Part shown: in pieces, positions 6,537 to 46,167 of the stretch
How the letters are laid out: every line of letters starts with the position of its first letter
Position numbering within the stretch: position 1 is the first letter of the stretch
NCBI RefSeq assembly: GCF_003570995.1
Contig: NZ_QXIY01000001.1
Span: 47,367 to 111,366, forward strand
DNA from: Candidatus Cryosericum septentrionale
GTDB taxonomy: Bacteria > Caldisericota > Caldisericia > Cryosericales > Cryosericaceae
Direction: 5' to 3'
Length of the DNA: 64,000 nucleotides
Translations under genes and position numbers: made by a program
Notes under the pieces: generated by a model
Databases searched by the model: none
What the model saw: only the letters and a program-made list of their open reading frames with translations
Told to the model about the DNA's origin: nothing

Positions 6537-8966
6537 CTATACCCGGGTTCTTCGTAGTATGCCCCCTACACGAGTTGCGAGGGTGGCCTCGACAGAGCTA
6601 ACAAGGATATCGACCTCATCGCCCAATAGTGTTCGGTCGGGTGAGGCAAACTCCATCGAGAAGCCCACGCTCTTCTTGCCTGTCGGTAGACTGTCCCCCT
6701 GGAAACTGTCAAACACGACAATTGTCTTGAGCAGAGGGCCGCCATTTTCAGTGATGATCGCCTGCAATTGGCCGGCTGTCATGCTACTGTCCACCAGGAC
6801 AGCGATGTCACGCCGGATCGACGGGAACCTGGAAAACTCCTTGAAACCGATAGCTGGGATACTCTTCAACAGGGCATCGACGGAAAACTCGGCGTAGAAC
6901 GTGTCTCGTTCCAGACCGAGGAGAGCACCGACGTCGTGCCTGAGAATGCCGAGTGTGCCCAGTGCCGTGGTTTCCGAGGAAACCAGGACGCTTGCACCAG
7001 TCTCCAGGATTGCACTATCCGATGACACGACGTTACAGGGCACATGCAGATCGCGAAGAACTGACTCGATGATGCCCTTCAGGACAAAGATGCTGGTGCT
7101 GGCGGCGGGCGTCGTCCAGTTCGCATCTTGCCACTTGCCTGCAAGAAGAATGCCAAGCCTCGTCTCCTCGTCGAACGACTGGCCACGAACGCTGAACGTT
7201 TTGCCAATCTCGAACGAGGCGAAGCCCTCGCGGCCCCGCGACAGGTTCCGCACCGCGGCTCCTGCAAGGCCAACAGCCATTGTGGGGCGCAGAGCATCCC
7301 AGTCTACCGTGAGCGGGTTGAGCAGGAGCGGTGCCGGAGGCAGGCCCATCGCGGTTACCGTGCTCTCCCGCACAAAACTGACAGTGCGTGATTCGACGAG
7401 CCCAATGCCGACGAGAATCTGGCGCAGTCGCTTACAGAGCGCCTTGAGGGGAGACTCTGAACCGGGGCGCAGGGCAAGGTTCGGCACGTGTGAGGGAAAC
7501 TCGTCATAGCCCTCCATTCTGACAATTTCTTCGACATATTCTGGCCAGGATGTCAGGTCGCCACGGAACGATGGCGGTGTCACCGATAAGGTTGTTCCCG
7601 TGACCGACGACGCGATTCCTTCATAGCCGAAGAGTCGTTGCATGTCTGTAGCGTCGAGGTTGGAACCCAGGTAGCCATTCACCTGATCCAGACCGAGATT
7701 CAGCGGTAGCTTCGCAGGAACAGGAATTCCAGCAGAAGCTACACGCGAGACATAGGAACCGAGACACTGCTCGCGGACGAGTGCCGATAGAACCGAAGGG
7801 ACGGCGCTGACAGTGAGCCCTGGATCGGTGCCACGCTCGTAGAGATAAGCTGCATCTGACTTGATGCCGAGGTGCCTGCTCGCGTGTGCGACTGCTCTCG
7901 GATCGAAGTGTGCAATCTCGAAGACGATGCGGGTCGTCGCAGCCGTGACGCTGGATGCCAGTCCGCCCATGACGCCGGCGACGGCCACTGGAACGGCAGC
8001 ATCTGCGATGACGAGCGTGCCTGGTTCGAGGGAGCGCAACACGCCGTCCAGTGTGACAATGGTCTCGCCGGGCAGAGACGTCCGCACGATGATACGATGC
8101 TCCTGAAGGCGATCGTAGTCAAACGCATGAGTCGGCTGTCCGTATTGTTTCAGACAGAGATTGGTCATATCGACAATCCTGCTGACAGGACGGACGCACA
8201 ACTGGTAAAGCTGAGTCCGGAAAGCGTGACTCGATGGGCCAGAGGCAACATCCTGTACCAGGACAGCGATGTAGGAACTGCACAGGGACTGGTTGTTGAT
8301 TGTCACAGCCAGGTCTCCGTCGTTCCGGGCGTGTGGAAGGGCTGAGGGCAGCGGTAGCTTGATGTCGCCCATATCGAACGGCTGATCCGCATCTCTTGCC
8401 TTGAGCACTTCGATCCACCGGGCCAATCCGAGAACCGACAGGGCGTCGCCCCGATCAGGTGTGACGCTCACCTCGAAGGCGGTGTCTCCTACGGGCCAGG
8501 CTTCCTCGAAGGGGCTCCCGACAATCGCTCCCGACCCCAGATGTAGGATACCTTCCTTCTCTTCGGAGGACAGGAGGTCACTGTCGAGTCCCAGTTCCTT
8601 CCAGGAGCAGAGCATACCGAACGATTCTACGGTACCGAACATGCGCGTCGCGATGTCCATGCCGTCGGCAGTCCTGCCACCTGGAATCACCACTGGGATG
8701 ATGTCACCCTCACGCACGTTGGTGGCGGCCGTGTATACACTGGTCGTTCCGCGCGGACCGAGGTCGAGGTCTATGAGCTGAAGCCTGTGGTGTGTCGGGT
8801 GGGGGGCAGTACGCATGACCCGCGCAACGAAGACGTCCCTGAACAGAACATCGGTCCTTTCCGTCGATTCGATTTCAATACCGACGTCGCCCAGTTTTGT
8901 GACCAGTTCCTCGGGAGTGTAGTCAAAATCGATCGCGGCATGCAGCGCAGACAGCTTGACTCTCAT
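6537..8966 (-). CDS. pheT: Phenylalanine--tRNA ligase beta subunit
   Basis: 809 residues, the normal length for bacterial PheT. The protein shows the N-terminal domain beginning MRVKLSALHAAIDFDYTPEEL, the tRNA-binding EMAP-like domain near residues 40-150 (PHPTHHRLQLIDLDLG), the B3/B4 editing domain, B5, and a C-terminal anticodon-binding FDX-ACB domain (FSRFPSIRRDIAVLVD). It forms the alpha2-beta2 enzyme with PheS, encoded 9 bases upstream on the same strand. The ATG has GAGGTG 5 to 10 bases upstream, inside the pheS stop region. The 3' end overlaps the extended N-terminal frame of mutS2, so the two are likely co-transcribed. Confidence 0.97.
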   Translation of the reverse strand: MRVKLSALHAAIDFDYTPEELVTKLGDVGIEIESTERTDVLFRDVFVARVMRTAPHPTHHRLQLIDLDLGPRGTTSVYTAATNVREGDIIPVVIPGGRTADGMDIATRMFGTVESFGMLCSWKELGLDSDLLSSEEKEGILHLGSGAIVGSPFEEAWPVGDTAFEVSVTPDRGDALSVLGLARWIEVLKARDADQPFDMGDIKLPLPSALPHARNDGDLAVTINNQSLCSSYIAVLVQDVASGPSSHAFRTQLYQLCVRPVSRIVDMTNLCLKQYGQPTHAFDYDRLQEHRIIVRTSLPGETIVTLDGVLRSLEPGTLVIADAAVPVAVAGVMGGLASSVTAATTRIVFEIAHFDPRAVAHASRHLGIKSDAAYLYERGTDPGLTVSAVPSVLSALVREQCLGSYVSRVASAGIPVPAKLPLNLGLDQVNGYLGSNLDATDMQRLFGYEGIASSVTGTTLSVTPPSFRGDLTSWPEYVEEIVRMEGYDEFPSHVPNLALRPGSESPLKALCKRLRQILVGIGLVESRTVSFVRESTVTAMGLPPAPLLLNPLTVDWDALRPTMAVGLAGAAVRNLSRGREGFASFEIGKTFSVRGQSFDEETRLGILLAGKWQDANWTTPAASTSIFVLKGIIESVLRDLHVPCNVVSSDSAILETGASVLVSSETTALGTLGILRHDVGALLGLERDTFYAEFSVDALLKSIPAIGFKEFSRFPSIRRDIAVLVDSSMTAGQLQAIITENGGPLLKTIVVFDSFQGDSLPTGKKSVGFSMEFASPDRTLLGDEVDILVSSVEATLATRVGGILRRTRV

Positions 8967-25308: not shown

Positions 25309-25446
25309 ATGGTAGACCAAGCAGATCCTAGTTGGAACCTTCTGCTCGTAGAATTGTCGAGACTCAGCAAGATTGCTGAACAATCCGCGAACGACAACAA
25401 CTGTGAGTCCTCAGGCACGGCAGCACCAGAACTTGGGGAGAGATAG
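25309..25446 (+). CDS. Conserved 45-residue ORF, copy 1
   Basis: This 45-codon frame is paralogous to the one at 45892-46029 over its full length. Shared blocks are WNLLLxELSRLSKI and SSxTAAPEL, ending ER-stop in both. Between the two copies about 10 codons differ silently and about 15 by substitution, with no indels, which argues for selection on the protein. No ribosome binding site is visible before the ATG, so it could be the tail of a longer lost gene. A copy of the dispersed repeat follows it in both places. No known family is recognised. Confidence 0.45.
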   Translation: MVDQADPSWNLLLVELSRLSKIAEQSANDNNCESSGTAAPELGER

Positions 25447-25497
25447 CACCGTCCACAATCTTGGGAGTATCTTCGCAGTGTTCACTACCAAGGTCTC

Positions 25498-25592
25498 TAG
25501 AACCAATACTCTATTATTCTATTACTGTAGTTCTCTCACTCTCGTATACAATCTATGCTTCTCGGAGAAGAGTCCTCAGGATCCTCGCCCGC
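25498..25592 (+). repeat. Dispersed intergenic repeat, copy A
   Basis: Starts TAGAACCAAT and ends CTCGCCCGC. It is homologous to 42224-42310 and 46081-46167, with an 8-base insertion relative to them. Shared features are CTATTACT-TAG, CAATCTATGCTTCT and AAGAGTCCT. It lies just downstream of the 45-codon ORF, as does copy B. Confidence 0.85.
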
Positions 25593-26388: not shown

Positions 26389-28380
26389 ATGCAGAAGCGG
26401 AAGCGAGCCAGGAGATCACTGGGGTCAAGGTCCATCTTCCCAAGGGGCGCTGATTGGAGCGTCAAAGAGGTCGGTCTTGTCGTCTCAGACTACTTCGAGA
26501 TGCTTCAGGCAGAGACTCGCGGAAAGCAGTATGTCAAAGTCGATCACCTTCGAGCCCTGAAGCCTTTGTTGAACCATCGAAGCAAGGGATCGATCGAGTT
26601 CAAGTACGCAAATATCAGTGCCGTGTTCAGGGATCTTGGGCAGTCGTATCTCGCCGGCTACAAGCCCAGAGCGAATTACCAGAAGCTTCTGACTGATGTA
26701 GTCAAGCTACGTCTGAACGTCCCCCCGCAGCATTCGCTGCTGCTTTCAGACCGGGCCGATGCGCCAACTGCAGATTCTGTCGAAGTGGAACCCGGTCCAC
26801 TCGGACCTGGCTGTCCAGCCAGTACTGTGCTGACTGGAATATCCCAGCGGAGCGAACTGAGTTGCCTCGTCGAGGAGTGTGGGGACATTACTTCTTCTCG
26901 GCTCAGCACGCTGGATGAGATGTCGACAAGGGCGGTAGTCAGCGCGGCATTTCCGTGCGCCGTCTTCCCTGGAGCAGACGGTGAGATAGACATTGAAGAC
27001 GCTTCGGCGATCGTCGAACAAGCTGCCGTAGGTCTTTATCTCAGGCTCAGGCGCAACGTAACATTTCGGGGGCTACTCCAATCGATGACCCGGGAGTCCG
27101 ACCTGAGCGTTGCCAAGATTGAAGCCAAAACTCTTGAGGGACTGAGTGATTCTGACCCCGGACGTCAATACGTGGGAAGCTTCGCCGCTGTAGTTGCCCT
27201 TGTGGTGCGAGTGCTCGGAGTCAAGGTCACAAACGATACACCATTGCTGCCTGAAGCACGTGTGCTTCCTGAAACACAGAAGGTTGTGAATCCGTTAGGT
27301 ACGGACGCAGGACCGCATGAAACACTGACTCGAGCCGAACTCATCGCACGCGAAAAGCGGTCCCGTCTCGAGCAGTCAGTGCGTCAGTTGCCACTGGACG
27401 TGCTGCTAGCGGAGTACTGCGATTTCTCAGCTTCAAAGGCGCCCTCGGTCTCTCCGGCTGACCTTCGTTGCCTGCACGCTCGGTACGGGGGACAGAGTAG
27501 CCTGAATTCGATAGGCATGGCGGAAGGTGTTACGCGCGAGCGCATACGGCAACGGTTGTGGAGAGGCAGTAGACTCCTGATGGAGGACCTCCTAATGCAC
27601 GTGAGTTTTCAAGACTACTGGCGCGGAATACATGAATACTCTATTCTAAGCCCTGAGATTCTTGAATACTCGGTACTTGGGAATATAGGAGACATGGAAC
27701 GACTCGTGGATGCCAAGGCTATTGGTCGGCTGTTCATGGATGCGCTGGGCCGTGAGCGTGGTCTGGCCCGCGTAAGGTTGGGTACCACATCATTTCAGTG
27801 TTGTCCCCAAGCTGAGGAGAAGCTGGAAGAGCTTCTCACGTGGGTGCAGCACGAGGCTCTGAGCGACGAGCCACATACATCCGGACTGGAGGAGAGGCTC
27901 GGCCAGTATCTTGCCTCGAATGCGGTTCTTCCGCAAGGATCAACCTCGGCGGTTACCACTGAGCTGGTGACGGCCCTCCCCCGCGAATCACTGGGCGACC
28001 AGATCGAGACAGCTCTGAAGCAGTTGCAGGCTCCAGCTCACTTTGCAGACCTTGCGCGGTACCTTGAGGCAAAAGGGATTGCCCAAGTAGATCCACGAAG
28101 GGTAGAGAGCACGCTGGGGAGAGACAGCCGTTTTTCCTGGGCAGGGCTTGGCACATGGGCTCTCCGTTCATGGGGCTACCCGCCTGCGAGTGAGAGCCTC
28201 GATGTCGTCCTGTACCTCATCCGGAAGAAGGGTGGAGGTGTCACGTTCGACGAAATATGCGAGTTCATGTTCATGAGTCATGCGTACGCGGTCAAGCGAA
28301 GTTCGGTGCTCATCAGAATGAAGATCGTGGAGGGGGGAATACTGAAGAGGGTCGGCGCCAGCATCTGGGACGAGATGTGA
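26389..28380 (+). CDS. Multi-domain DNA-binding protein: McrA-head, sigma4-like, HARE-HTH
   Basis: 663 residues. Residues about 23-107 (WSVKEVGLVVSDYFEML, then FKYANISAVFRDLG and YKPRANYQ) match the N-terminal head domain known from ScoMcrA-like HNH/SRA type IV restriction proteins. Around 371-395, SIGMAEGVTRERIRQRL is a sigma70 region 4-type helix-turn-helix. Residues about 542-600 (PAHFADLARYLEAKGI, FSWAGLGTWALRSWG) look like a HARE/HB1 winged helix found in restriction proteins. A further small helical domain ends the chain. No HNH or other nuclease motif is seen. It heads a tight operon with an HTH protein, a GHKL ATPase and another sigma4-like protein. A defence or modified-DNA-sensing role is inferred from domains and context. 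Confidence 0.72.
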   Translation: MQKRKRARRSLGSRSIFPRGADWSVKEVGLVVSDYFEMLQAETRGKQYVKVDHLRALKPLLNHRSKGSIEFKYANISAVFRDLGQSYLAGYKPRANYQKLLTDVVKLRLNVPPQHSLLLSDRADAPTADSVEVEPGPLGPGCPASTVLTGISQRSELSCLVEECGDITSSRLSTLDEMSTRAVVSAAFPCAVFPGADGEIDIEDASAIVEQAAVGLYLRLRRNVTFRGLLQSMTRESDLSVAKIEAKTLEGLSDSDPGRQYVGSFAAVVALVVRVLGVKVTNDTPLLPEARVLPETQKVVNPLGTDAGPHETLTRAELIAREKRSRLEQSVRQLPLDVLLAEYCDFSASKAPSVSPADLRCLHARYGGQSSLNSIGMAEGVTRERIRQRLWRGSRLLMEDLLMHVSFQDYWRGIHEYSILSPEILEYSVLGNIGDMERLVDAKAIGRLFMDALGRERGLARVRLGTTSFQCCPQAEEKLEELLTWVQHEALSDEPHTSGLEERLGQYLASNAVLPQGSTSAVTTELVTALPRESLGDQIETALKQLQAPAHFADLARYLEAKGIAQVDPRRVESTLGRDSRFSWAGLGTWALRSWGYPPASESLDVVLYLIRKKGGGVTFDEICEFMFMSHAYAVKRSSVLIRMKIVEGGILKRVGASIWDEM

Positions 28381-28406
28381 TGCAGAGACATGTGAGGGAG
28401 CACACT

Positions 28407-28994
28407 ATGGGAAAGTTGAGACAAGCGCTAGAGAAGCGTACCGTACCGCCGACAACTGTGGGGGAACTCGCAACGTACCTGAACGTGCAGTACAAGACGG
28501 CGTGGGGGTGGATTGCCGGAAGGAATCTCCCGAAGGATACTCGAACGCGGCAGGTGCTGTTCAGCGTCCTCGGGTTGGATGAAGCGACAGTTGAGGCTGG
28601 GACCAAGCGTCACGATGCAACCCGCGCTGCGCATACAGAGGTCGCAGTGACTGCTACGCCAGACCGAGAGAGATTGATCTCGCTGTCAGACGAGATTCGC
28701 TCTCTCAGCGAGGATCTCAGCGCAAAGCTTGCGCAGTTCTCGAACTCTTCCGGAGTTGGGCCTGACGAATCAGACCAGTTCGTCAAGAAGTTTAGACGGC
28801 AGCTGAAGAGCCTGTCGGCAACTCTTGCTCTGGCACTTTCGGATTCGAAAGTACTGCAGGAGCTTCGTAGCAGGGTAAACGTGTATGAGCTCGCGTACGT
28901 CACGACGCTTCTCGGCGCCGTCTTGGACAACCAGAAGCTCGAACTATGGAAAGCCTTTCGGGACTTGCCTGGGAAAGGGGGCAAGGGAACATGA
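28407..28994 (+). CDS. HTH DNA-binding protein of the GHKL operon
   Basis: 195 residues from the ATG with GAGGGAG 6 bases upstream. Residues about 5-55 form a helix-turn-helix (VGELATYLNVQYKTAWGWI, then AGRNLPKDTRTRQVLF), similar to XRE-like regulators that use a WxxG turn. The remainder is predicted mostly alpha-helical with S/D/E/L-rich heptads, perhaps a coiled coil for dimerisation. It starts 26 bases after the preceding gene and overlaps the ATPase start by 4 bases (ATGA), so it is translated with it. It is either the operon regulator or a DNA-targeting subunit. Confidence 0.68.
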   Translation: MGKLRQALEKRTVPPTTVGELATYLNVQYKTAWGWIAGRNLPKDTRTRQVLFSVLGLDEATVEAGTKRHDATRAAHTEVAVTATPDRERLISLSDEIRSLSEDLSAKLAQFSNSSGVGPDESDQFVKKFRRQLKSLSATLALALSDSKVLQELRSRVNVYELAYVTTLLGAVLDNQKLELWKAFRDLPGKGGKGT

Positions 28995-30460
28995 GCCAGA
29001 TTCCGTTTGAGTTCCCGAACAAGACAAAAGTGATGTCTTTGCTCGCCTCCGTCTATGAAGACCCACGTGTCGCGCTGGCTGAGTTCATCGTCAACAGTAT
29101 GGATGCCGGTGCGAGCGTTGTTGCGTTGGAGGCGGCAAGCGGCAAGATCAATAGCATCTCCGTACGAGACGATGGCTGTGGAATGTCAGAAGGGGAGATG
29201 GAGAGGGTCGTCCGAAACTTGGGCAATTCTATCAAGACGAACGAAGACGAGCTACGAAAGCGTCGTATCGATCCGTCAAAGGTCATTGGCAAGATGGGCA
29301 TCGGGATTCTTGGATACCAGTCATTTGCTCGCAAAGCGGTCTTCATCTCCAAGATTGATGACGGAGGTGCCGTTTGGCGTCTTTCCATGGAGGCAGGGAA
29401 GCCCAACGCGGAGATACTGCCTGCATTGCTTCGTGACAAAGAACGGCTAGCGGACGTCCCCCATGGTACCGTGGTGGAACTCGTGGACATTTCGCGGGAC
29501 ATCATGCGCCTCTTCTCGCGAAGGACGCTCCAGCAATACCTGGAGAAGAACTTCGCTGATCTGTTGCGCCGAGACGGTGCGGCGGCCGTGATGATTGGCG
29601 GTGACCGCGTAGTACCTCCGCCTCTCGCCGGAACGCCCTTCTCCCTTATGGCGGTGCCAATTGGCGAGTACGGCCGTGTGGACCTTTCGTTGTCGATCGT
29701 AGCCAGCGGCGTTAGTGCTGGCGACGGTGTGGCGGTCTCCAGCAAGGGGCGAGTTGTCGTGAAAGAGATTATCAGAATTCCTGAATTCCAGCATTCGCCT
29801 TGGACCGATGGTGTCTTGCATGGATCGGTGGAGGCCCCGTTTCTGACAGTAGCGCCAACTCGTGGCATGTACATACGGAACGACGGCTTCGAAGCCTTCG
29901 TCCGTGGGATTCTCTCGATTGAGTCAAGGCTGAGCCAGGAGGTTGAGCAGGCACGCGCAAGGCGAGCCGAGGAACAGCAGTCAAACGTGCTGCGACGGCT
30001 GAGGGAGGCTGTGGGGCTTGCTCTAAGGGATCTTGAGCTCGAGGCGGCAAGGTCCGAAGCGCACAGGCCCGGGGGACCTGGCACGACGGAGCGCAGCGGC
30101 AGTACGCCGGGTGAACACAAGGGGGCACACGAAGGCGGTTCGAACCATCGACCACCAAGTGAGGGCGCCGAACGAAGGCAGAACCGCAGTCAACTCTATT
30201 TGGAGTGGCAACATCTTGGAACACCTGTGCACAGCAAGCTCGGCGAAGGGGGCAGAATCATTCTCAACTACGACTGTCCCGAGTATGCCGAAGAGTGTGC
30301 TATTCCGTCGGGACAGCGCGCGTACCGCTACATCACCAAACTGGTCGCGAAGGAGTTGGCCAAACGGAACTACGGAGATGCCGACACAGACGAGGTCATG
30401 GAGCAAGCGGTGGAAATTGAGCTGCGAATCCTGAAGTATCTCGGATTCGCAAGGGACTGA
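28991..30460 (+). CDS. GHKL (Hsp90/MORC-like) ATPase
   Basis: 489 residues. The Bergerat ATP site is complete: E31-xxx-N35-xx-D38 (EFIVNSMDAG), D61-G-x-G64 (DDGCGMS) and G100-xx-G-x-G105 (GKMGIG). The central part resembles the S5-like transducer domain. A charged, Gly/Ser-rich linker (about residues 340-410) leads to a C-terminal domain with YITKLVAKELAKRNYGDAD. Hsp90-, MutL- and MORC-type proteins with this site clamp on ligands or DNA when ATP binds. It belongs to the same overlapping gene series as the HTH protein. GHKL ATPases recur in several phage-defence systems, but I cannot assign this one to a named type. Confidence 0.82.
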   Translation: MSQIPFEFPNKTKVMSLLASVYEDPRVALAEFIVNSMDAGASVVALEAASGKINSISVRDDGCGMSEGEMERVVRNLGNSIKTNEDELRKRRIDPSKVIGKMGIGILGYQSFARKAVFISKIDDGGAVWRLSMEAGKPNAEILPALLRDKERLADVPHGTVVELVDISRDIMRLFSRRTLQQYLEKNFADLLRRDGAAAVMIGGDRVVPPPLAGTPFSLMAVPIGEYGRVDLSLSIVASGVSAGDGVAVSSKGRVVVKEIIRIPEFQHSPWTDGVLHGSVEAPFLTVAPTRGMYIRNDGFEAFVRGILSIESRLSQEVEQARARRAEEQQSNVLRRLREAVGLALRDLELEAARSEAHRPGGPGTTERSGSTPGEHKGAHEGGSNHRPPSEGAERRQNRSQLYLEWQHLGTPVHSKLGEGGRIILNYDCPEYAEECAIPSGQRAYRYITKLVAKELAKRNYGDADTDEVMEQAVEIELRILKYLGFARD

Positions 30461-30565
30461 TCGGTGTGGGCTGGTCATCGCTCGTATCCGCTCGCAGTTG
30501 TTGGCGCATATGGATGAACATGAGGGACTGGATCTTCGCCGAATCCGACTGTTGGGGAGGAGCAC

Positions 30566-31813
30566 TTGAAGATAGCTGAGCACACGTACGTGTACGGAAA
30601 GGACGGTCATTACTATGTCTCGCGTTCCGACACCGGAGGTAGCAGAACACTCGGCCGATTTGCCGTCTTGCAGGATGCGTTGAAGGCGCATGCGAACGCA
30701 TGGTTGCAGGTGCCGATTCACGGCAGGGGGCACGACGCCTGGTTGTCTTTCTGCTCGGATGGTCGCCCCCTCGGGGAAGGCACTCTCAAGACATGGCGAA
30801 CACGTCGTCTAGAGGAGTTCGTGAACCGCCTTCCTGAACCACAGCAGCGGGTCATGATCTTGTTGGAGGGTATCCATGGTGAGAGCAGGCACAACCCCGA
30901 TCAAATCGCCAGGGCTCTTGGTATAAGCATTGAGCGCGTTCAGGAGATTGAGAGGCTGGCGACGAGAACGATGAACGGGCTTCTGAACAAGGAGGAAATG
31001 ATGGACAATGAAGCAAGCATGGACGATGAGGCAAGAACTGTCAGCACGACAGGTCAGCCTTTGGATGACGTACCGGATGACGAACTGTTGGACCTTCTTA
31101 GGGTTCTCATTCGAAATGACCCAACCCTTGCCGAGAAGATGAGTGAACTCAGGCTGTCGCGTGTGAACGTACGGCATGTCGAGATGATCGGCTCCCTGAT
31201 GCTTCAAGTCCCCGAGCTCCGAGGGCTTGCGAGCAAGTGGCCTGAGTATAATACCCCCACGAACAAGAACCTCGAAAAGAGGGTTTCCGCCATTGAGGAA
31301 ACGAACCTCTTCACTTCGCTTCTCGATTGGCTGGCCGGGCGACTCTGGGACTTGCCCGCCGAGGACATAGAATGCTCAGCTACCGATGGAGCAATCCATG
31401 CAGACAAGGGAGACGCGCGTGGACCTCTCGCGCAGAATCCTGCCCTCTCTGACTCAGTGGCCGGGCTTCCGGGAAGCGATTCCACCGGCGCAGGCGTGAT
31501 CGAGCCAGAAACACCGGTTGGCCAGAAGCGTTTCTGCGACGCGGCCTCTGACCTTCTCGATGCAGCGGACTTCGCGATGAGCCCTTGGCATGAAATCTGG
31601 AAGCGTCTGACAGGCGAGCGTTCGAACAGTGGTCGTGTCACGCTGGCGTTGGAGCGCATTGAAGTCGCTCAAGCAGACACACGGGAGGCAACTGAGGAGG
31701 AGTTTCGTCGGAAGGGTTGGGCCCTTGACCCACTGACACGGGACACTCTGGAGGCCGTAGACGAGGTACTGGAAGGCGACGTGAACATCCCTGAAGACCT
31801 CTCCTCGACTTGA
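30566..31813 (+). CDS. Sigma-region-4-like protein of the GHKL operon
   Basis: 415 residues. Start is TTG with GGGGAGGAG 4 bases upstream. Residues about 80-137 carry LPEPQQRVMILLEGIHGE followed by PDQIARALGISIERVQEIE, a sigma70 region 4 fold. No region 2 is seen, so it is not a complete sigma factor. The N-terminal 55 residues look like a small beta-rich domain (YVYGKDGHYYVSRSD). The C-terminal half is acidic and helical without a known match. It is 105 bases after the ATPase gene on the same strand. Two sigma4-like proteins in one cluster is unusual and suggests interaction with RNA polymerase or a shared DNA-recognition mode. Confidence 0.65.
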   Translation: MKIAEHTYVYGKDGHYYVSRSDTGGSRTLGRFAVLQDALKAHANAWLQVPIHGRGHDAWLSFCSDGRPLGEGTLKTWRTRRLEEFVNRLPEPQQRVMILLEGIHGESRHNPDQIARALGISIERVQEIERLATRTMNGLLNKEEMMDNEASMDDEARTVSTTGQPLDDVPDDELLDLLRVLIRNDPTLAEKMSELRLSRVNVRHVEMIGSLMLQVPELRGLASKWPEYNTPTNKNLEKRVSAIEETNLFTSLLDWLAGRLWDLPAEDIECSATDGAIHADKGDARGPLAQNPALSDSVAGLPGSDSTGAGVIEPETPVGQKRFCDAASDLLDAADFAMSPWHEIWKRLTGERSNSGRVTLALERIEVAQADTREATEEEFRRKGWALDPLTRDTLEAVDEVLEGDVNIPEDLSST

Positions 31814-35241: not shown

Positions 35242-35455
35242 TTAGTAGTACTGCGCAATATAGCCGTAGGCCTTGTCGAAGAGGTCTTGGTCCTTCATCT
35301 CGTACTTCACGTAGAGGACGTGACACAGGGCCTTCTGGACTTCGCGCTCGCCAGCGCTGCCCAGACCCAGGACAGAAGACGGGACCATCAGGGACTCCCC
35401 CTTCCACAATTTGGACAGAACATCCGGTGCCTCCTTCTCAGACAGTACGACTCAC
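35242..35455 (-). pseudogene. Remnant of type I restriction subunit HsdR (C-terminus)
   Basis: About 70 codons on the minus strand read DVLSKLWKGESLMVP, then GEREVQKALCHVLY, and end FDKAYGYIAQYY-stop. This matches the extreme C-terminus of HsdR proteins (LFDKAYxYIxxYY). The frame is closed upstream by a stop exactly where the zinc-ribbon gene ends, so no complete hsdR exists here. It shows that a type I restriction locus was once present. A 47-codon ORF from ATG 35388 could still be translated, but I regard it as a scar. Confidence 0.6.
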
Positions 35456-36132
35456 GACTTTTTTGCAGGGTCGTCAGGGACAGTCAGAGCAGTGCCGCAC
35501 TTGAGACAGAACTTGCTCCCTTTTGGATTCCCATACCCACAGGAGGGGCAGAACAGCAAAGAAGACGAATCGACGGTAGGTGATAGCGATGGGCGAGGAG
35601 GGGCGTCTGTGGTCAGAAGTGCTGCGTCTTTCGCATCCTGCTCTCTCAGTACAGCAAAGCACAGAAAGGTACAGCCCAGCGAGAGCAACAATGTCAGATA
35701 GAAGGCCGGTTGGAACTCAAAGTGGATGAAGCCGGACATTGCGGCTATCTCCGAGGAACTCGTGGATCCTTGAGAAATCTCGTTGTAAAAGGCAATGGGT
35801 GCTCCGATGTAAAGGCCGACGAGGATCAAGGATTGAAAGGAGGATGAAAACGCAAGAGTCATGTCTCCATCTTCATCGGGCGCAAATCCTACGAAAAAGC
35901 CAATGACCGATAGGAAAAGGACAATGAAGAGGATGGTCCGAAGAATGATCTGAAAATTTTGTGACGCTGCGAATCCGTTTGTTTTCATAACAGTTGCATA
36001 TTGCCCCGTTTCGATTTGGAATCCCGTGGCACTCATGATTTTCTCCCCTCCGCATGAGACCAGTACCCAGGGAAACAGGAACATGACGATCATTACCAGA
36101 AACAACAGCTTTACTAACGATTTCTTGTTCAT
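35452..36132 (-). CDS. Membrane protein with C-terminal zinc ribbon
   Basis: 226 residues. Four or so hydrophobic segments are visible (about residues 7-27, 62-83, 93-113 and 141-160). The C-terminal tail holds a zinc ribbon C-P-S-C...C-L-K-C. The first segment ends in LVSCGGE, which could be read as a lipobox. The ATG overlaps the nuclease gene stop by 4 bases, so they are coupled. Zinc-ribbon membrane proteins are a common loose class; no function is assigned. Confidence 0.7.
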   Translation of the reverse strand: MNKKSLVKLLFLVMIVMFLFPWVLVSCGGEKIMSATGFQIETGQYATVMKTNGFAASQNFQIILRTILFIVLFLSVIGFFVGFAPDEDGDMTLAFSSSFQSLILVGLYIGAPIAFYNEISQGSTSSSEIAAMSGFIHFEFQPAFYLTLLLSLGCTFLCFAVLREQDAKDAALLTTDAPPRPSLSPTVDSSSLLFCPSCGYGNPKGSKFCLKCGTALTVPDDPAKKS

Positions 36133-37001
36133 GAATGACCGTCTACTCTTGCTTCAATAACCTTCTGTATCCCCACCGGGACATTCGACAGGAGATCATC
36201 CCCTGTGGCTTTCTCGATCGCGTCGACACTGGTAAGGTAGGTCTGCCACTTTGAATTGACGCTGTTGATGTTTGGCGTGTTGATGGCAATGACACGGGTC
36301 TTCGTGGTGATGTGGCTGAGATCTTTGGTTCCATTGGGCAACACGACTGCAACTTTCCAGATGTGGGCAGGTACCGTGACGTGTCCGCCGTCGATCGTTG
36401 TTGCAGTACCCTTTGAACCAGTACCACCACTGCCGTAGGAACCCATGACGATGTACAGTTTATCCCCGCTTTTTACCAACCCACGCAGGTAATTCTCGAA
36501 GTACATCCAGGTACCCTCATTGTTTCTCGGTGCCTGCGGGATCATGTTCGTCATCAGGAAGGTCGATGAATTGGCGGCAACAGAAGAAGTCCTGTCTGCT
36601 GAAGGACAGTTGTGGCCACGGTCGAACCCGCTGCGGGAGTAGCCGTTCGCCTGCACCTGATACCAACCGGCAGGAAGGGTGTTGTCCGCGCGGAAATTGT
36701 TCAACCTGTCTGTTGAGCCGAGCGAGGAAGGACCGAGATACCAGCTCACCCAGTTTGGTTCACCACGGCCCCGGTTGTAGGAAAGCGTGTAATTGCTTGT
36801 CGTCATCAGGTAATTGTTGGGTGACGTGGTGCTGTGGACAGCCTTGGACGGATTGCCCAGAAGCAAATTGCTTCCATCGACTGGCACTGCGACTGTTGGC
36901 TTCACCGTCGTCGACGACAAAACCGTGGCTGCCGACGGGACAAGGAGTCCCGCGACCAGGAGAATGGTTGCCAGGAGTTTCAGCAGACGCGATCTTCTCA
37001 T
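36129..37001 (-). CDS. Secreted DNA/RNA non-specific endonuclease (NucA type)
   Basis: 290 residues from the ATG with GGAGG 5 bases upstream. A signal peptide (KLLATILLVAGLLVPSAA) precedes a beta-beta-alpha-metal nuclease: D127-R-G-H130 in GFDRGHNCPSA, and a downstream NMIPQAPRNNEGTW with the metal-binding asparagine. The family cleaves DNA and RNA outside the cytoplasm; uses include nutrient scavenging, defence and toxins. It shares a 23-base identical start region with the lipoprotein gene at 38448. The downstream membrane/zinc-ribbon gene is coupled to it and may be an accessory or inhibitor (inference). Confidence 0.88.
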   Translation of the reverse strand: MRRSRLLKLLATILLVAGLLVPSAATVLSSTTVKPTVAVPVDGSNLLLGNPSKAVHSTTSPNNYLMTTSNYTLSYNRGRGEPNWVSWYLGPSSLGSTDRLNNFRADNTLPAGWYQVQANGYSRSGFDRGHNCPSADRTSSVAANSSTFLMTNMIPQAPRNNEGTWMYFENYLRGLVKSGDKLYIVMGSYGSGGTGSKGTATTIDGGHVTVPAHIWKVAVVLPNGTKDLSHITTKTRVIAINTPNINSVNSKWQTYLTSVDAIEKATGDDLLSNVPVGIQKVIEARVDGHS

Positions 37002-37133
37002 GAGTTCCTCCTTCATTAGGAACAGCAACGTCATAGTGTGTGCCAAGTTCCCGTCCAGGTCAACAATCGCATCGACTCATCCAAAATGTGCGTTGAACCC
37101 TTGTCCTCATGTCCACCGCGGCTGCGATAGGAG

Positions 37134-38240
37134 TCAGTTTGAGAAGGTGTACTCGTTGAGGTGCCCATACAAAAACAGCAAATCTCGCCATGCTTGAACG
37201 TCGCTGGAGTTGAGACTATACTCGGCGTAATACTGACCACCGTTAACGCGTACCTTGAGTGGCGCCGTACCAGAATAGTTGGCAATCGCCTGGAATAGCG
37301 CTTCGCTTCCTGCGTCTGATTGCCGGAAGGTAACGCACTCGTATACGCCGCCGTAGAGAACGTCCGTCTTGACATCATCGCTGAAGGACTCCTTGACCAC
37401 GGTGGAGTAAGTGGTGTCTCCTATCTTGACCATCACTTGCTTGGCGAAGAGCCAGTCTTCGCGATAGAGCGTGAGACTCAGGAACCACCAACTGCTCGAC
37501 GAGTCCTTCCCCAGGTAAGGGTAGAAGCGAAACGCCTTCGATCCATCGTCCCTGCTGGAATACACGAATGTCAGGTTGCGAAACTCGTCATTCTCCACTC
37601 GGCACAGCCGCACGATGCGAGTCACTTCGCTCTTGATCAGCTGCCCATAGAGCGTTTCTTGTTGGCTGGACCATACTTGGCTGGTACGCACGGACTCAAG
37701 TCGTGCCATGGCGTCGCGGAATCGACCTTTCTGTTGCAGGGCTTTCGCGTCCTTCACTGCTTGCTGGAGCAGGGCTGTCTGTTCTTTGCGTCGGGCTGCC
37801 TCTTCCTTGAGCCGAGCTGCCTCAAGCCTCTGGGTCCTGTGCTCGTTCGACTCCATCTTCGTGAGAGCCCCTTGGAGCGTTGCCATGTTGGCACTTGTAG
37901 CGCCAATAGTAGTCGTGACCAATGGCGAGCTTCCGTCAGACATTGTGACTGCGACGTGAGCGGTCACCGGTCGTTCTGTCGTACCCTTCGTGACGGAGAA
38001 ATCCTGAAAAGAGAGGTAGGCCTCTTTGCCGGGCTGCACCTTGTCAAGGAGAATCATTTCCTTGTTGTTCGCGTCTGAGATGACAATGTTCACAGCGGTC
38101 GTCGTCCAGTACTGCGCGTCGCTTAGCGCACGGAAAAAATCGAGTTGATCTTGTGGTATCGGCTCCGGAGAACAGCCCGGTAGAACAAGCAAAAGCGAGA
38201 GTATTAGTATGATTGCTGTGAGAACTCTTCGGTCATGCAT
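37134..38240 (-). CDS. Lipoprotein with coiled-coil segment
   Basis: 368 residues. Signal peptide with lipobox VLPG-C. Residues about 115-180 are rich in E/K/A/Q/R heptads (RLKEEAARRKEQTALLQQAV), a coiled coil. The C-terminal half is beta-rich (YSSRDDGSKAFRFYPYLG and onwards). No family is recognised. It is in the same orientation as the nuclease gene and separated from it by about 130 bases. Confidence 0.7.
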   Translation of the reverse strand: MHDRRVLTAIILILSLLLVLPGCSPEPIPQDQLDFFRALSDAQYWTTTAVNIVISDANNKEMILLDKVQPGKEAYLSFQDFSVTKGTTERPVTAHVAVTMSDGSSPLVTTTIGATSANMATLQGALTKMESNEHRTQRLEAARLKEEAARRKEQTALLQQAVKDAKALQQKGRFRDAMARLESVRTSQVWSSQQETLYGQLIKSEVTRIVRLCRVENDEFRNLTFVYSSRDDGSKAFRFYPYLGKDSSSSWWFLSLTLYREDWLFAKQVMVKIGDTTYSTVVKESFSDDVKTDVLYGGVYECVTFRQSDAGSEALFQAIANYSGTAPLKVRVNGGQYYAEYSLNSSDVQAWRDLLFLYGHLNEYTFSN

Positions 38241-42142: not shown

Positions 42143-42931
42143 GTAGTTGCTCTCCTTTCTCAAAACGAGGAATCGAGATCATTGCTCTGTCTGATCATCC
42201 CAGAGACGAGCAATAGCAGCGCCTAGAACCAATGCTCTATTACTATAGTCATCTCACTCCAGTATTCAATCTATGCTTCTCGAAGAAGAGTTCCTGGAAT
42301 ACTCGCCCGCGCAGAGACTCCGGGACGACCGTCGGAATTCGCGAGCTTGACGAGTCGGTCAACACTCTCGGTCTGGTTTGGAATGTCTTGGTCCAATCCT
42401 TGGCGTTGCAGTCGCCTGTTCATCCCCTGAAAACGTCCACGTATTCGCGAGGCCTCTTATTGTTTCGTTTTTGCCGACGACTTTTCTGGGTCGCACACTT
42501 AATGTCGTCGTTGGCCATCGGATGCCCAGAATCCTCGGTTACCGGGTCACGGACTCTGCCACGGCAAAACGACGTTGTTCATAGCGAATCAAGGCGGCGT
42601 AAGCTTCCACCCGCCAGCTCGGCGCCGCATTCGAATTCTAGTCGGGGAAAAAGGGCGAACAATCGGCGCAGAATCAGTCATTCTGACTGGATGGAGATGA
42701 ACCCGCCAAGGATGGTCTTTGGCAATCGCAGTCGTTTTTCGAGCTGCAATGCCCTCCGTTTGCGTCCGGATCGCAACTTGCTGCTTGTTGGCATTGACTG
42801 ACATTGCCTATCTGTGCCTGATGACTATACTCGATTCATAATGCAGGCTTGTTGACACTACAGAGCGGAGAGCGCTAAGGACGCTCACCGAAGTTCCATC
42901 TTATGAGAGGCAAAACCCGGAGGAGGATACA
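42143..42931. other. Gap carrying repeat copy C
   Basis: About 790 bases. Apart from the dispersed repeat at 42224-42310, open frames here have no ribosome binding site or recognisable product. The final 60 bases probably hold the promoter of the NACHT gene. Confidence 0.5.
42224..42310 (+). repeat. Dispersed intergenic repeat, copy C
   Basis: 87 bases, TAGAACCAAT-like start (TAGAACCAATGC) and CTCGCCCGC end, nearly collinear with copy B. The 45-codon ORF that precedes copies A and B is missing, although a short GCAATAGCAGC stretch resembles the ORF end. Confidence 0.85.
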
Positions 42932-45334
42932 GTGGACCAGACGATAGACCTTGCAGGCCAAGCGCGTAGCCTTGTCCGGTCAGAACGAGAGAAGATTCTC
43001 TGCGAAATCCCGGAAACCGAGCTCCATGGGCATCTGAAATCTCTGTTTGAAAAAATGCAGCCAGACTACACAGTCGAGGTCACGCACGGAGTCGCGGAGT
43101 ACGGAAAGGATCTCGTCATTGTGAAGCGGGACAAGTTCGCTGCCCAGGTCGTCGGCATCGTCGTCAAGCGCGGAGACATCAAAGGGAAGACTGTTGGTCA
43201 CGTCGAGGATATTCTGTCCTCTGTTGAGCGAGCTTTCAAGACAGGAACACCTCGGGAGCTTGCGGAAATTGAGAGTCAGATGCGTCAAGCTGCCGAGCTT
43301 GGCGCGGAGTTGAAGGCTACGTTTGCCGAGTTGAGGGTGACCGACGTCTATGTCGTGATCGCAGGCACGATAAGTGTTTCTGCCCGGAAACGCCTCAAAG
43401 GTCAACTCCACGTTCCCATACAAGTGTTTGACCTAACGTGGCTCGTAGACAATTTCACAGATTTCTACCCGCAGGTTTTTTTTGATGGGCGGGCGCAAAA
43501 CTACATTCAGTCCGAAATCGAGAGACTTCAGCGTACTCCGTGGATGAGCCAAAAGGGTAGAAACCTGACGGACTACTATGTTGACCCGACTTTCATGTCC
43601 TGTGACATTCCTATTGACCTGAATCTGGACCACCTTGCCGCGCTTGCGGAGCTTCGACGTTTTCCATTTCAGAAGCTGCCAGACATAATCACCCAAAAAG
43701 GGCACGTGCTAATCCTTGGGGATCCTGGAAGCGGGAAGTCGGCAGCACTGGCGAAGATGGCGCTGGACAAGCTTCGGGTGGCATCGACGCAGTTGCGTGC
43801 GGGCCAGCGCAATGCCCCTGAGCTCAGAATCCCCGTGTTTCTGACGGCACGCGAGCTGTTGTCGATTCGAAGTGCGGAGGAGTTGCTTACACTTCGGCTC
43901 AAGGATCCAAGAGTAGTGCCCGAGGGAGCACGTATTGACTGTCTCCTTGTCGACGGACTCGATGAAATACCGAGAAAAGACAGGCTGACGGCTCTCCAGA
44001 GGGCTACAGAGCTCGCCGATTCACAGAAGTGCTCGGTCGTCGTGGCAAGCAGAAGAGTAAGCGATGTTCAGGCAGTCAGTAACGGCAACTATGCACGGTA
44101 TGAGATTCTGCCGTTCGGAACAGGGCAGGCCATCGAGCTGTTCAAGCACCTGGCGTCCTCTAGCATCATGTTGGAGGCACTTACCGAAGGGCTACAGCGC
44201 ATTCAACTGCAAATACCACTTTTCCCCCTGTCGCTTCTGCTCCTCATCAGGCTTGTCGAACAAGAGAAGGAAATACCTGCATCTATTACTGAACTCTACA
44301 CCGATTTCCTTGACATTGCGCTTGGCAAATTCGATCCAGACAAAGGGATCCAGGTGCTCTTTGAGTACCACATGAAGGAGGACTTTCTTGCACATCTCGC
44401 CTACGGCGAGTTCTTCGAGAAAGACCGTCTGGCGATACCGCGTGAGGATTTTGACTCCTTCTTGGACACGTATGTCGTTGATTTGGACATCAACAGAGAG
44501 AAACTCCAGGATTTCTTGACAGACTTGGAGAGAGCCGGCATCCTAGATTTGAAGGACGAGGTCGAGTTCAAGCATCGATCCTTTCTAGATTACTTCACTG
44601 CGTCCTACATCTATGGACACCGCGAAGAAATCGAACATCTCCACGACCGCATTGTCCAGATCTACTACGAAGGATTCTGGGAGGAAGTCGCGTTCTTCTA
44701 CGTAGGGCTGAAAATGGAGTTGAATGACGACCTAATGAGCAAGCTGCTGCAGCATGAACACGTGACGCTCTCCGACCTGGTGCTAAGGCTGCTGATTGGG
44801 CGCCTGCTGCAGGCGGGGTGGAAATCGACGTCAAGCGTGAAGCGTCGTGGTATCGACGGTGCAATTGATGTGGCAGAGCCAATCTACACGTCATTCCTCG
44901 AAGTGTGCAGGAAACGCGATGCAGTCTTTCCTTCGATATACTCCGATTTTCTTATGTTGAGTCTTGTAGAGGCGTCTTTCAGCAGCAATTTCCTGAAGAC
45001 GCAACTGGCGGATCTATTCGCACAGTGCATTTCTCGGAACGACGATAGGGCGCTCTCGCGATCAATCTTGTTTCTCTGGGCAGAGCAGCGCCTGATGACA
45101 CCAGGTGAACTCCGAGGAGCTGTAGAACAGTGCTCAAAACTCCTGAGCGGCGTTCGCGCTTTCTTGCCTGCCGAAAGAGCGAGGTACCTCTGGCTGCTGA
45201 AGTTGATTGGTAGAAAGGATCGGGAGCTTGAGCAACTTATCACTAAGAAGTTGAAGAGGCTGACGAAGGTTCATCCCGATGTCATGAAAGGATTGCTGCC
45301 GTACCGACAGCCTCTGCGAAGCCTTAAACGCTGA
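42932..45334 (+). CDS. NACHT NTPase with Mrr-like N-terminal domain
   Basis: 800 residues. Start is GTG with GGAGGAGG 5 bases upstream. Residues about 25-190 resemble a restriction-endonuclease (Mrr/PD-(D/E)xK) fold: EYGKD60LVIV and later GIVVK79RG. The acidic or Gln residue normally two before the lysine is V77, so nuclease activity is doubtful. The NACHT core follows: Walker A G263-DPGSGKS, Walker B CLLVDGLDEI near 337-346, and a sensor VVVASRRVSD. The C-terminal 400 residues are alpha-helical repeats, probably the target sensor. STAND/NACHT proteins with such layouts are bacterial anti-phage sensors (bNACHT, Avs). The gene is single and flanked by repeats B and C. Confidence 0.85.
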   Translation: MDQTIDLAGQARSLVRSEREKILCEIPETELHGHLKSLFEKMQPDYTVEVTHGVAEYGKDLVIVKRDKFAAQVVGIVVKRGDIKGKTVGHVEDILSSVERAFKTGTPRELAEIESQMRQAAELGAELKATFAELRVTDVYVVIAGTISVSARKRLKGQLHVPIQVFDLTWLVDNFTDFYPQVFFDGRAQNYIQSEIERLQRTPWMSQKGRNLTDYYVDPTFMSCDIPIDLNLDHLAALAELRRFPFQKLPDIITQKGHVLILGDPGSGKSAALAKMALDKLRVASTQLRAGQRNAPELRIPVFLTARELLSIRSAEELLTLRLKDPRVVPEGARIDCLLVDGLDEIPRKDRLTALQRATELADSQKCSVVVASRRVSDVQAVSNGNYARYEILPFGTGQAIELFKHLASSSIMLEALTEGLQRIQLQIPLFPLSLLLLIRLVEQEKEIPASITELYTDFLDIALGKFDPDKGIQVLFEYHMKEDFLAHLAYGEFFEKDRLAIPREDFDSFLDTYVVDLDINREKLQDFLTDLERAGILDLKDEVEFKHRSFLDYFTASYIYGHREEIEHLHDRIVQIYYEGFWEEVAFFYVGLKMELNDDLMSKLLQHEHVTLSDLVLRLLIGRLLQAGWKSTSSVKRRGIDGAIDVAEPIYTSFLEVCRKRDAVFPSIYSDFLMLSLVEASFSSNFLKTQLADLFAQCISRNDDRALSRSILFLWAEQRLMTPGELRGAVEQCSKLLSGVRAFLPAERARYLWLLKLIGRKDRELEQLITKKLKRLTKVHPDVMKGLLPYRQPLRSLKR

Positions 45335-45891: not shown

Positions 45892-46029
45892 ATGGTGGAC
45901 CCGGGCGATTCCAACTGGAACCTGTTGTTGGCAGAACTATCAAGACTTAGCAAGATTGTTGAACGACCCACGAACGACAGGGACCATGGGTCCTCAAGCA
46001 CAGCAGCACCAGAGCTGAGGGAGAGATAG
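45892..46029 (+). CDS. Conserved 45-residue ORF, copy 2
   Basis: Full-length paralog of the frame at 25309-25446, with the same start, length and stop and shared WNLLLxELSRLSKI core. Here too there is no visible ribosome binding site, and the dispersed repeat follows 51 bases later. It could be a relic of the end of a mobile gene carried with the repeat, or a small expressed protein. Confidence 0.45.
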   Translation: MVDPGDSNWNLLLAELSRLSKIVERPTNDRDHGSSSTAAPELRER

Positions 46030-46080
46030 CAGCACCCACGATCAGGGGGATATCCTCCCGATGTTCACTACCCAAGTCTG

Positions 46081-46167
46081 TAGAACCAATACTCTATTAC
46101 TATAGTCATCTCACAACAGTATTCAATCTATGCTTCTGGAAAAAGAGTCCTTGGGATCCTCGCCCGC
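46081..46167 (+). repeat. Dispersed intergenic repeat, copy B
   Basis: 87 bases, the same length as copy C, from TAGAACCAATACTC to CTCGCCCGC. AATACT and AGTATT arms within it could pair. It follows the second 45-codon ORF. Confidence 0.85.

Follow-up and report, generated by a model that had tools for sequence, protein, structure and literature searches.

The MZA defence system has been validated as mzaABCDE, in which mzaA encodes a sigma factor (PMC9523054) and MzaB is named an ATPase in NCBIfam. ParaMORC ATPases occur in restriction-modification (R-M) operons, and DNA looping has been proposed for them (PMC2292703). Here we describe a locus in a 64,000-nucleotide stretch of Candidatus Cryosericum septentrionale (contig NZ_QXIY01000001.1; hereafter the window), for which an initial annotation made from the sequence alone had proposed a four-gene defence operon with a McrA-type head domain, two sigma-region-4-like helix-turn-helix (HTH) domains, a HARE-type winged helix and a GHKL ATPase. 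Its first three genes, P1, P2 and P3 (the triad), form a conserved operon. Judged from its sequence, P1 is the descendant of a sigma-factor fusion, and P3 is predicted to be a GHKL ATPase that belongs to the MutL/MORC/paraMORC radiation and is intact. The four co-oriented open reading frames (ORFs) that had been listed are present and, with the parts of P1, are as follows:

P1: 26389..28380, plus strand; 663 amino acids
P1 head: residues ~20-127, 26446..26769, plus strand; N-terminal domain of PADLOC PDC-S36 (head plus DUF3883/NOV_C), E 1.7e-32
P1 helical region: residues 150-330
P1 sigma-70 region-4-like HTH: residues ~340-402, 27406..27594, plus strand; recognition helix VTRERIRQ
P1 middle domain: residues 403-530
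P1 HARE-like domain: residues ~534-595
P1 C-terminal winged-helix-like domain: residues 600-663; MarR_2, E 0.04
P1 HARE-like and C-terminal winged-helix module together: 27988..28377, plus strand
P2: 28407..28994 (~195 amino acids), or from 28380 (204 amino acids), plus strand; N-terminal HTH and conserved C-terminal helical domain
P3: 28991..30460, plus strand; 489 amino acids; GHKL ATPase (MutL/Hsp90/MORC-type), presumed S5-like middle, conserved C-terminal domain
P4: 30566..31813, plus strand; 415 amino acids; sigma-4-like HTH near residues 80-135; no ortholog found

P3 orthologs were surveyed in 54 genomes of the phylum, as draft assemblies and with part of each collection sampled. Four were found, all within one class, and at all four loci P1, P2 and P3 stood in the same order as overlapping or abutting genes. 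The loci are that of the window, one on contig C14 of the same genome, one in a congener (G004) and one in another family of the class (G034); the triad is therefore carried by 3/54 genomes, one of which holds two divergent copies. The C14 P3 is 61% identical to that of the window, and in a tree the four P3 proteins formed one clade (100/100) in which C14 and G004 paired to the exclusion of the window copy; the two copies in this genome therefore do not stem from a recent duplication. Full-length P1 homologs were found only adjoining P3, and P2 always lay immediately 5' of P3. P1-P2-P3 is a conserved operon of three genes, not of four.

The close gene spacing that had been annotated holds for P2 and P3, which overlap by ATGA. 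For P1 and P2 it depends on the start of P2: the junction is TGATG if P2 starts at 28380, while P2 homologs start at a methionine equivalent to 28407, 26 nt after P1. The gap between P3 and P4 is 105 nt. P4 was tried as a fourth subunit and rejected, as it is missing at the three other triad loci (L006, L007, L008) and no ortholog was found in 50 relatives, where only short matches at the sigma-4 position were seen, as with RpoD in its own genome; it probably lies outside the unit. Its sigma-4 stretch is weak (E 0.008 in Pfam, 1.6e-5 in NCBIfam), and the P4 search also brought up RpoD-like proteins of relatives at ~1e-8.

The sigma ancestry of P1 is seen in the G034 copy, a protein of 614 amino acids with sigma regions 1.2, 2, 3 and 4 followed by the P1 C-terminal module. 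Its sigma part matched RpoD with E 1e-107 and MzaA with E 4e-85, and was 67% identical to a separate RpoD of the same genome, indicating that it either derives from the host RpoD or has stayed close to it. The P1 copies of the genus retain region 4 only; sigma region 2 was not found in the window, C14 or G004 copies, in agreement with what had been annotated for the window. The simplest reading would be a complete sigma first, followed by loss in the genus. The recognition helix of the window P1, VTRERIRQ, is that of the genome's own RpoD. In sigma-70 this helix of region 4 makes contact with the -35 element; lacking sigma region 2, a protein is unable to open a promoter. With region 2 gone and the RpoD helix kept, the window P1 could thus read -35 DNA but not open a promoter. 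The region-4 match of the window P1 (E 3e-4) is below the Pfam cut-off, and in a structure search its 57-column alignment with the solved region 4 of the Thermus aquaticus sigma (37% identity) had a non-significant E-value; the assignment is supported by co-linearity and by the P1 copy that is a complete sigma factor.

The last 84 residues of P1 (from FxWAG...AL..WGYP onward) are common to all four P1 proteins, and in a profile comparison of the genus copies with the G034 copy they alone aligned firmly (E 8e-11); the helical region at residues 150-330 had no counterpart in that comparison. The annotated HARE-type winged helix is weak in the window copy (RNA polymerase delta E 0.011; no match to Pfam PF05066) and passes the Pfam threshold in the C14 sister (26.8 bits vs a cut-off of 25.9), to which the window copy aligns across that region. 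AlphaFold models of P1 and P2, built from two-sequence alignments, were too poor to interpret past sigma-4.

The McrA-type head was borne out as a restriction/defence-type module through its match to PDC-S36; its identity with the head of ScoMcrA could not be confirmed, as that head, which has no known function (PMC6224610), gave no match to the window head by sequence or profile. The window head shares 56% identity with that of a PDC-S36 protein encoded on C14, with similarity detectable at the DNA level, and was probably acquired from a PDC-S36 gene. A head as the defining part of the unit was rejected, contrary to what had first been supposed, since it is present in one of the four copies and missing from those of C14, G004 and G034. 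Near the C14 triad, a minus-strand gene (L006, 3304-4680) encodes an N-terminus that is EVE-like by eye, followed by the PDC-S36 head and NOV_C/DUF3883; its product is likely a modification-dependent defence protein and probably of the type that donated the P1 head.

P3 matched HATPase_c_3 with E 2.6e-13, and the Bergerat motifs ExxxNxxDA, DDGxGM, GxMGIG and GT are intact in 4/4 copies, so that the complete Bergerat ATPase of the initial annotation was upheld. The closest curated families are BbrUII/HgiDII, MutL, an HSP90 family and MzaB. No Pfam S5 match was obtained in P3; an S5-type domain would be compatible with its length and MutL-like alignment. No nuclease domain was recognised in P3 or elsewhere in the operon, again as annotated.

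The surroundings of the triad were then compared between loci. The island of restriction and NACHT genes annotated in the window was confirmed, with HD/dGTPase-like, Endonuclease_NS, NACHT/STAND and type III R-M genes. Around the sister triad, contig C14 (L006, L179, L180) carries a second large defence island with ISP R-M, CAP12-type TIR (PDC-S35), OLD-like, PDC-S36, PDC-S37 (1513 amino acids) and HNH genes. In G004 an HNH gene lies directly 5' of the triad, and the gene on the 3' side has a weak match to the start of PglW (NERD-like). The expected placement among restriction and defence genes was thus found at three of the four triad loci. In G034, by reading, an SbcC-like ATPase gene precedes the triad and a Phd/PIN-like pair follows it, which do not make a clear defence island.

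All four P3 orthologs lie in triads, the neighbours at three loci are of defence type, the Bergerat motifs are intact and BbrUII/HgiDII, MutL and MzaB are relatives; these features favour a putative defence operon. Our tentative preference, held with less than even confidence, is that P1-P2-P3 is a mobile anti-invader module without a nuclease of its own, acting where DNA meets RNA polymerase; the MzaA-MzaB pair of MZA and paraMORC proteins in R-M operons provide precedent. P1 would be an RpoD-derived reader, with sigma region 4 for -35 elements and its HARE and winged-helix domains for DNA binding, and the window head would be an extra part borrowed from a modification/restriction-type protein. 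Together with the HTH protein P2, it would recognise promoter-bearing or foreign DNA and recruit P3. ATP binding makes the GHKL dimers of MORC and MutL close on DNA; an ATP-driven P3 dimer would likewise clamp DNA and, once closed, block or silence transcription where it is bound. Promoter occlusion would be expected of a -35 reader that lacks region 2 and is tied to a clamp. A role in phage defence is suggested by location only, and the DNA clamping, the silencing and the trigger are what we infer. Doubtful, in our estimate, is the proposal that foreign DNA is silenced rather than cut, in which a GHKL operon would have captured a host RpoD and pared it down to the part that reads -35 DNA; this part would mark incoming promoters and a MORC-like clamp would lock them, as a prokaryotic counterpart of MORC transcriptional silencing.

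Several observations weigh against the anti-invader module. Two more lineages, G604 (L110) and G964 (L141), carry P2-P3 pairs without P1; the pair in G604 lies between housekeeping genes that read as ribonucleotide-reductase-like and purine-synthesis-like, and the contig of G964 starts just 5' of its pair, so that a lost P1 is possible. In several other phyla P3-like genes stand alone in ordinary contexts, so the question of single occurrence raised by the initial annotation had a mixed answer: close orthologs are never single, while distant P3-like genes do stand alone. Taken together, the solo genes and the pairs indicate that the ATPase family is not a defence marker and that the triad is a special form of it. 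The sigma-4 helix is changed in two copies, to VTYQRVQQ (C14) and ITYQRVQQ (G004); the complete sigma of the G034 copy would fit activation of transcription no less than its silencing; P1 gave a poor structure model (mean pLDDT 50); and the clearly defence-like contexts come down to three islands, all in one genus.

The main rival holds that the triad is a controller module that switches neighbouring immune genes on or off, as CapK/CapS do upstream of immune operons. A GHKL protein with a DNA-binding regulator that governs diverse immune operons is documented (PMC13373217), and every part of the triad is either a DNA-binding domain or an ATPase, no effector having been recognised. Its neighbours differ from copy to copy, as those of plug-in controllers do, and the complete sigma of G034 P1 could drive transcription. 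We nevertheless regard a controller as only possible, leaning towards doubt, because curated matches place P3 with MutL/MORC rather than with RsbW-type kinases, no STAS domain was found, and neither a conserved promoter nor an immune operon downstream was detected; G034 has the SbcC-like ATPase and Phd/PIN-like pair beside its triad. The triad might instead be the recognition and ATPase part of a restriction system whose nuclease is nearby or in trans, such as the HNH protein found with two copies. An HNH gene lies directly 5' of the G004 triad and ~5-6 kb upstream of the C14 triad, with products that are 85% identical, GHKL ATPases are known in R-M operons (PMC2292703), and the head domain is elsewhere fused to DUF3883/NOV_C. 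However, the 1513-amino-acid gene separates HNH gene and triad in C14, and no relative of the HNH gene came up in the window or next to the G034 triad, which makes this explanation unlikely.

An ordinary stress-response or housekeeping module, in which an Hsp90-like GHKL protein assembles or releases a sigma-derived factor and lies in variable regions by chance, would account for the P3-like genes that stand alone, or paired with P2, in ordinary contexts in several phyla and for a complete sigma in G034 P1 so close to that genome's own RpoD. The patchy distribution (3/54 genomes, one with two divergent copies), the defence genes that flank the triad in the genus and the loss of sigma region 2 there speak against it, and we consider it quite improbable. 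As the sigma part ranges from complete, at 67% identity to the host RpoD, to region 4 only, the triad offers a way to separate hypotheses on the role of the sigma part. If the region-4-only version works, that part would read promoters or DNA rather than initiate transcription, and bacterial defence would be linked to promoter recognition and MORC-type silencing.

Relatives of P3 were also sought more widely. No viral carriage was found in IMG/VR scans with P3, P2 and the P1 tail, and phage records held no P3 relative; its plasmid relatives were other GHKL proteins beside a cytosine methylase or helicases, not triads. A collection-wide P3 pattern scan returned mostly MutL-like proteins, with the G004 locus as the sole close relative; another matching genome, G111, has a full-length solo P3-like gene. 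In the phylum of G104 (Pelotomaculum), 0/299 genomes were above threshold, an empty result that shows little. Solo P3-like GHKL ATPases (L094, L142-L157) are widespread, ~470-600 amino acids long and share a common C-terminus; the libraries searched apparently hold no name for their function.

G034 carries a further operon of this kind on a 3.4-kb contig (L176, G034:C151:1-3377), where the gene for a 365-amino-acid sigma4-HARE-like protein (126-1223) abuts that for a 502-amino-acid MORC-type GHKL ATPase (1223-2731). The two matched Sigma70_r4 (E 3e-16) and Morc6_S5 (E 5e-12) in Pfam, and their best NCBIfam matches were MzaA (3.6e-16) and MzaB (7.9e-16); the HARE match falls short of the cut-off, and P1 is matched co-linearly but weakly. 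L176 is possibly a minimal MZA-like pair, and as a separate operon in G034 it indicates that the sigma4/GHKL pairing arose or was kept more than once. A relative of its ATPase is encoded at L183 (G062:C64, 7513-9033), and the gene 5' of it (6987-7562) encodes a 191-amino-acid protein that by eye resembles a duplicated PC4 coactivator domain. L183 looks, by eye, like another GHKL protein with a transcription-type DNA-binding partner.

Upstream of P1 the window contains, by reading, tsaD-like and esterase-like genes and then ~1.1 kb without an obvious gene. The GC content of the triad equals that of these two neighbours. No promoter signal above chance was found 5' of P1, and no Rfam elements were found between 22 and 60 kb of the window. 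An interspersed repeat flanks the operon-bearing stretch, with copies at 25309-25592 and 45892-46167 (284 bp, 76% identical) that both seem to carry a short ORF starting MVDxxDxxWNLLL; a third, partial copy (82-90% identical) lies at 42224-42310. Among the island genes, an 800-amino-acid NACHT/STAND-type NTPase is encoded at 42932-45334 (nSTAND_NTPase4, E 2.8e-7), and at 35452-38240 (minus strand) the Endonuclease_NS gene (E 1.8e-49) lies beside those of a zinc-ribbon protein and an unidentified 368-amino-acid protein.

No paper describing the triad was found among the open-access papers searched. The statement that no named system has this set of genes needs amending, as a sigma-70 protein with a GHKL ATPase is exactly the MzaA-MzaB pair. 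The combination resembles part of MZA but has not been described as such. PDC-S36 shares its head with the window P1, which has sigma4-HARE in place of NOV_C. Like the triad, CapK-CapS has a GHKL protein and a DNA-binding partner adjoining immune genes (PMC13373217), but CapK has an anti-sigma-kinase-like HTH-STAS-GHKL architecture and CapS combines STAS with wHTH, whereas no STAS domain was found in the triad. The ATPase part of BbrUII/HgiDII (GHKL plus nuclease) is matched by the P3 N-terminus (E 1.8e-13 to 1.3e-16); the match is confined to that part, and P3 has its own conserved C-terminus and no recognised nuclease domain. Prokaryotic MORC/paraMORC proteins are, like P3, GHKL ATPases with intact motifs in mobile, restriction-type neighbourhoods (PMC2292703, Iyer, Abhiman and Aravind 2008). 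No SF-II helicase, methylase or nuclease, as would be expected of an operon of that superfamily, lies inside the triad, where R-M genes are neighbours only; the partners of its GHKL ATPase are an HTH protein and one derived from a sigma factor. PMC2292703 does not use the word "sigma".

As in MZA, a protein derived from sigma-70 is encoded alongside a GHKL ATPase in the triad, in a defence setting. P3 matched MzaB with E 2e-6 (26 bits vs a cut-off of 850), the window P1, with region 4 only, matched MzaA with E 0.055, and the sigma part of G034 P1 reached 287 bits, far below the MzaA equivalog cut-off of 800. No account of the role of the sigma factor in MZA was found, and MzaC (Z1), MzaD and MzaE (AIPR) were not recognised among the neighbouring genes scanned, which were part of the flanking ORFs. 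MzaA has sigma regions 2-4 and a long N-terminal extension, whereas P1 of the genus has lost region 2 and carries a HARE-wHTH tail, and P2 is an extra gene of the triad relative to MZA. The MzaA-MzaB pair of MZA is the closest validated relative of the triad.

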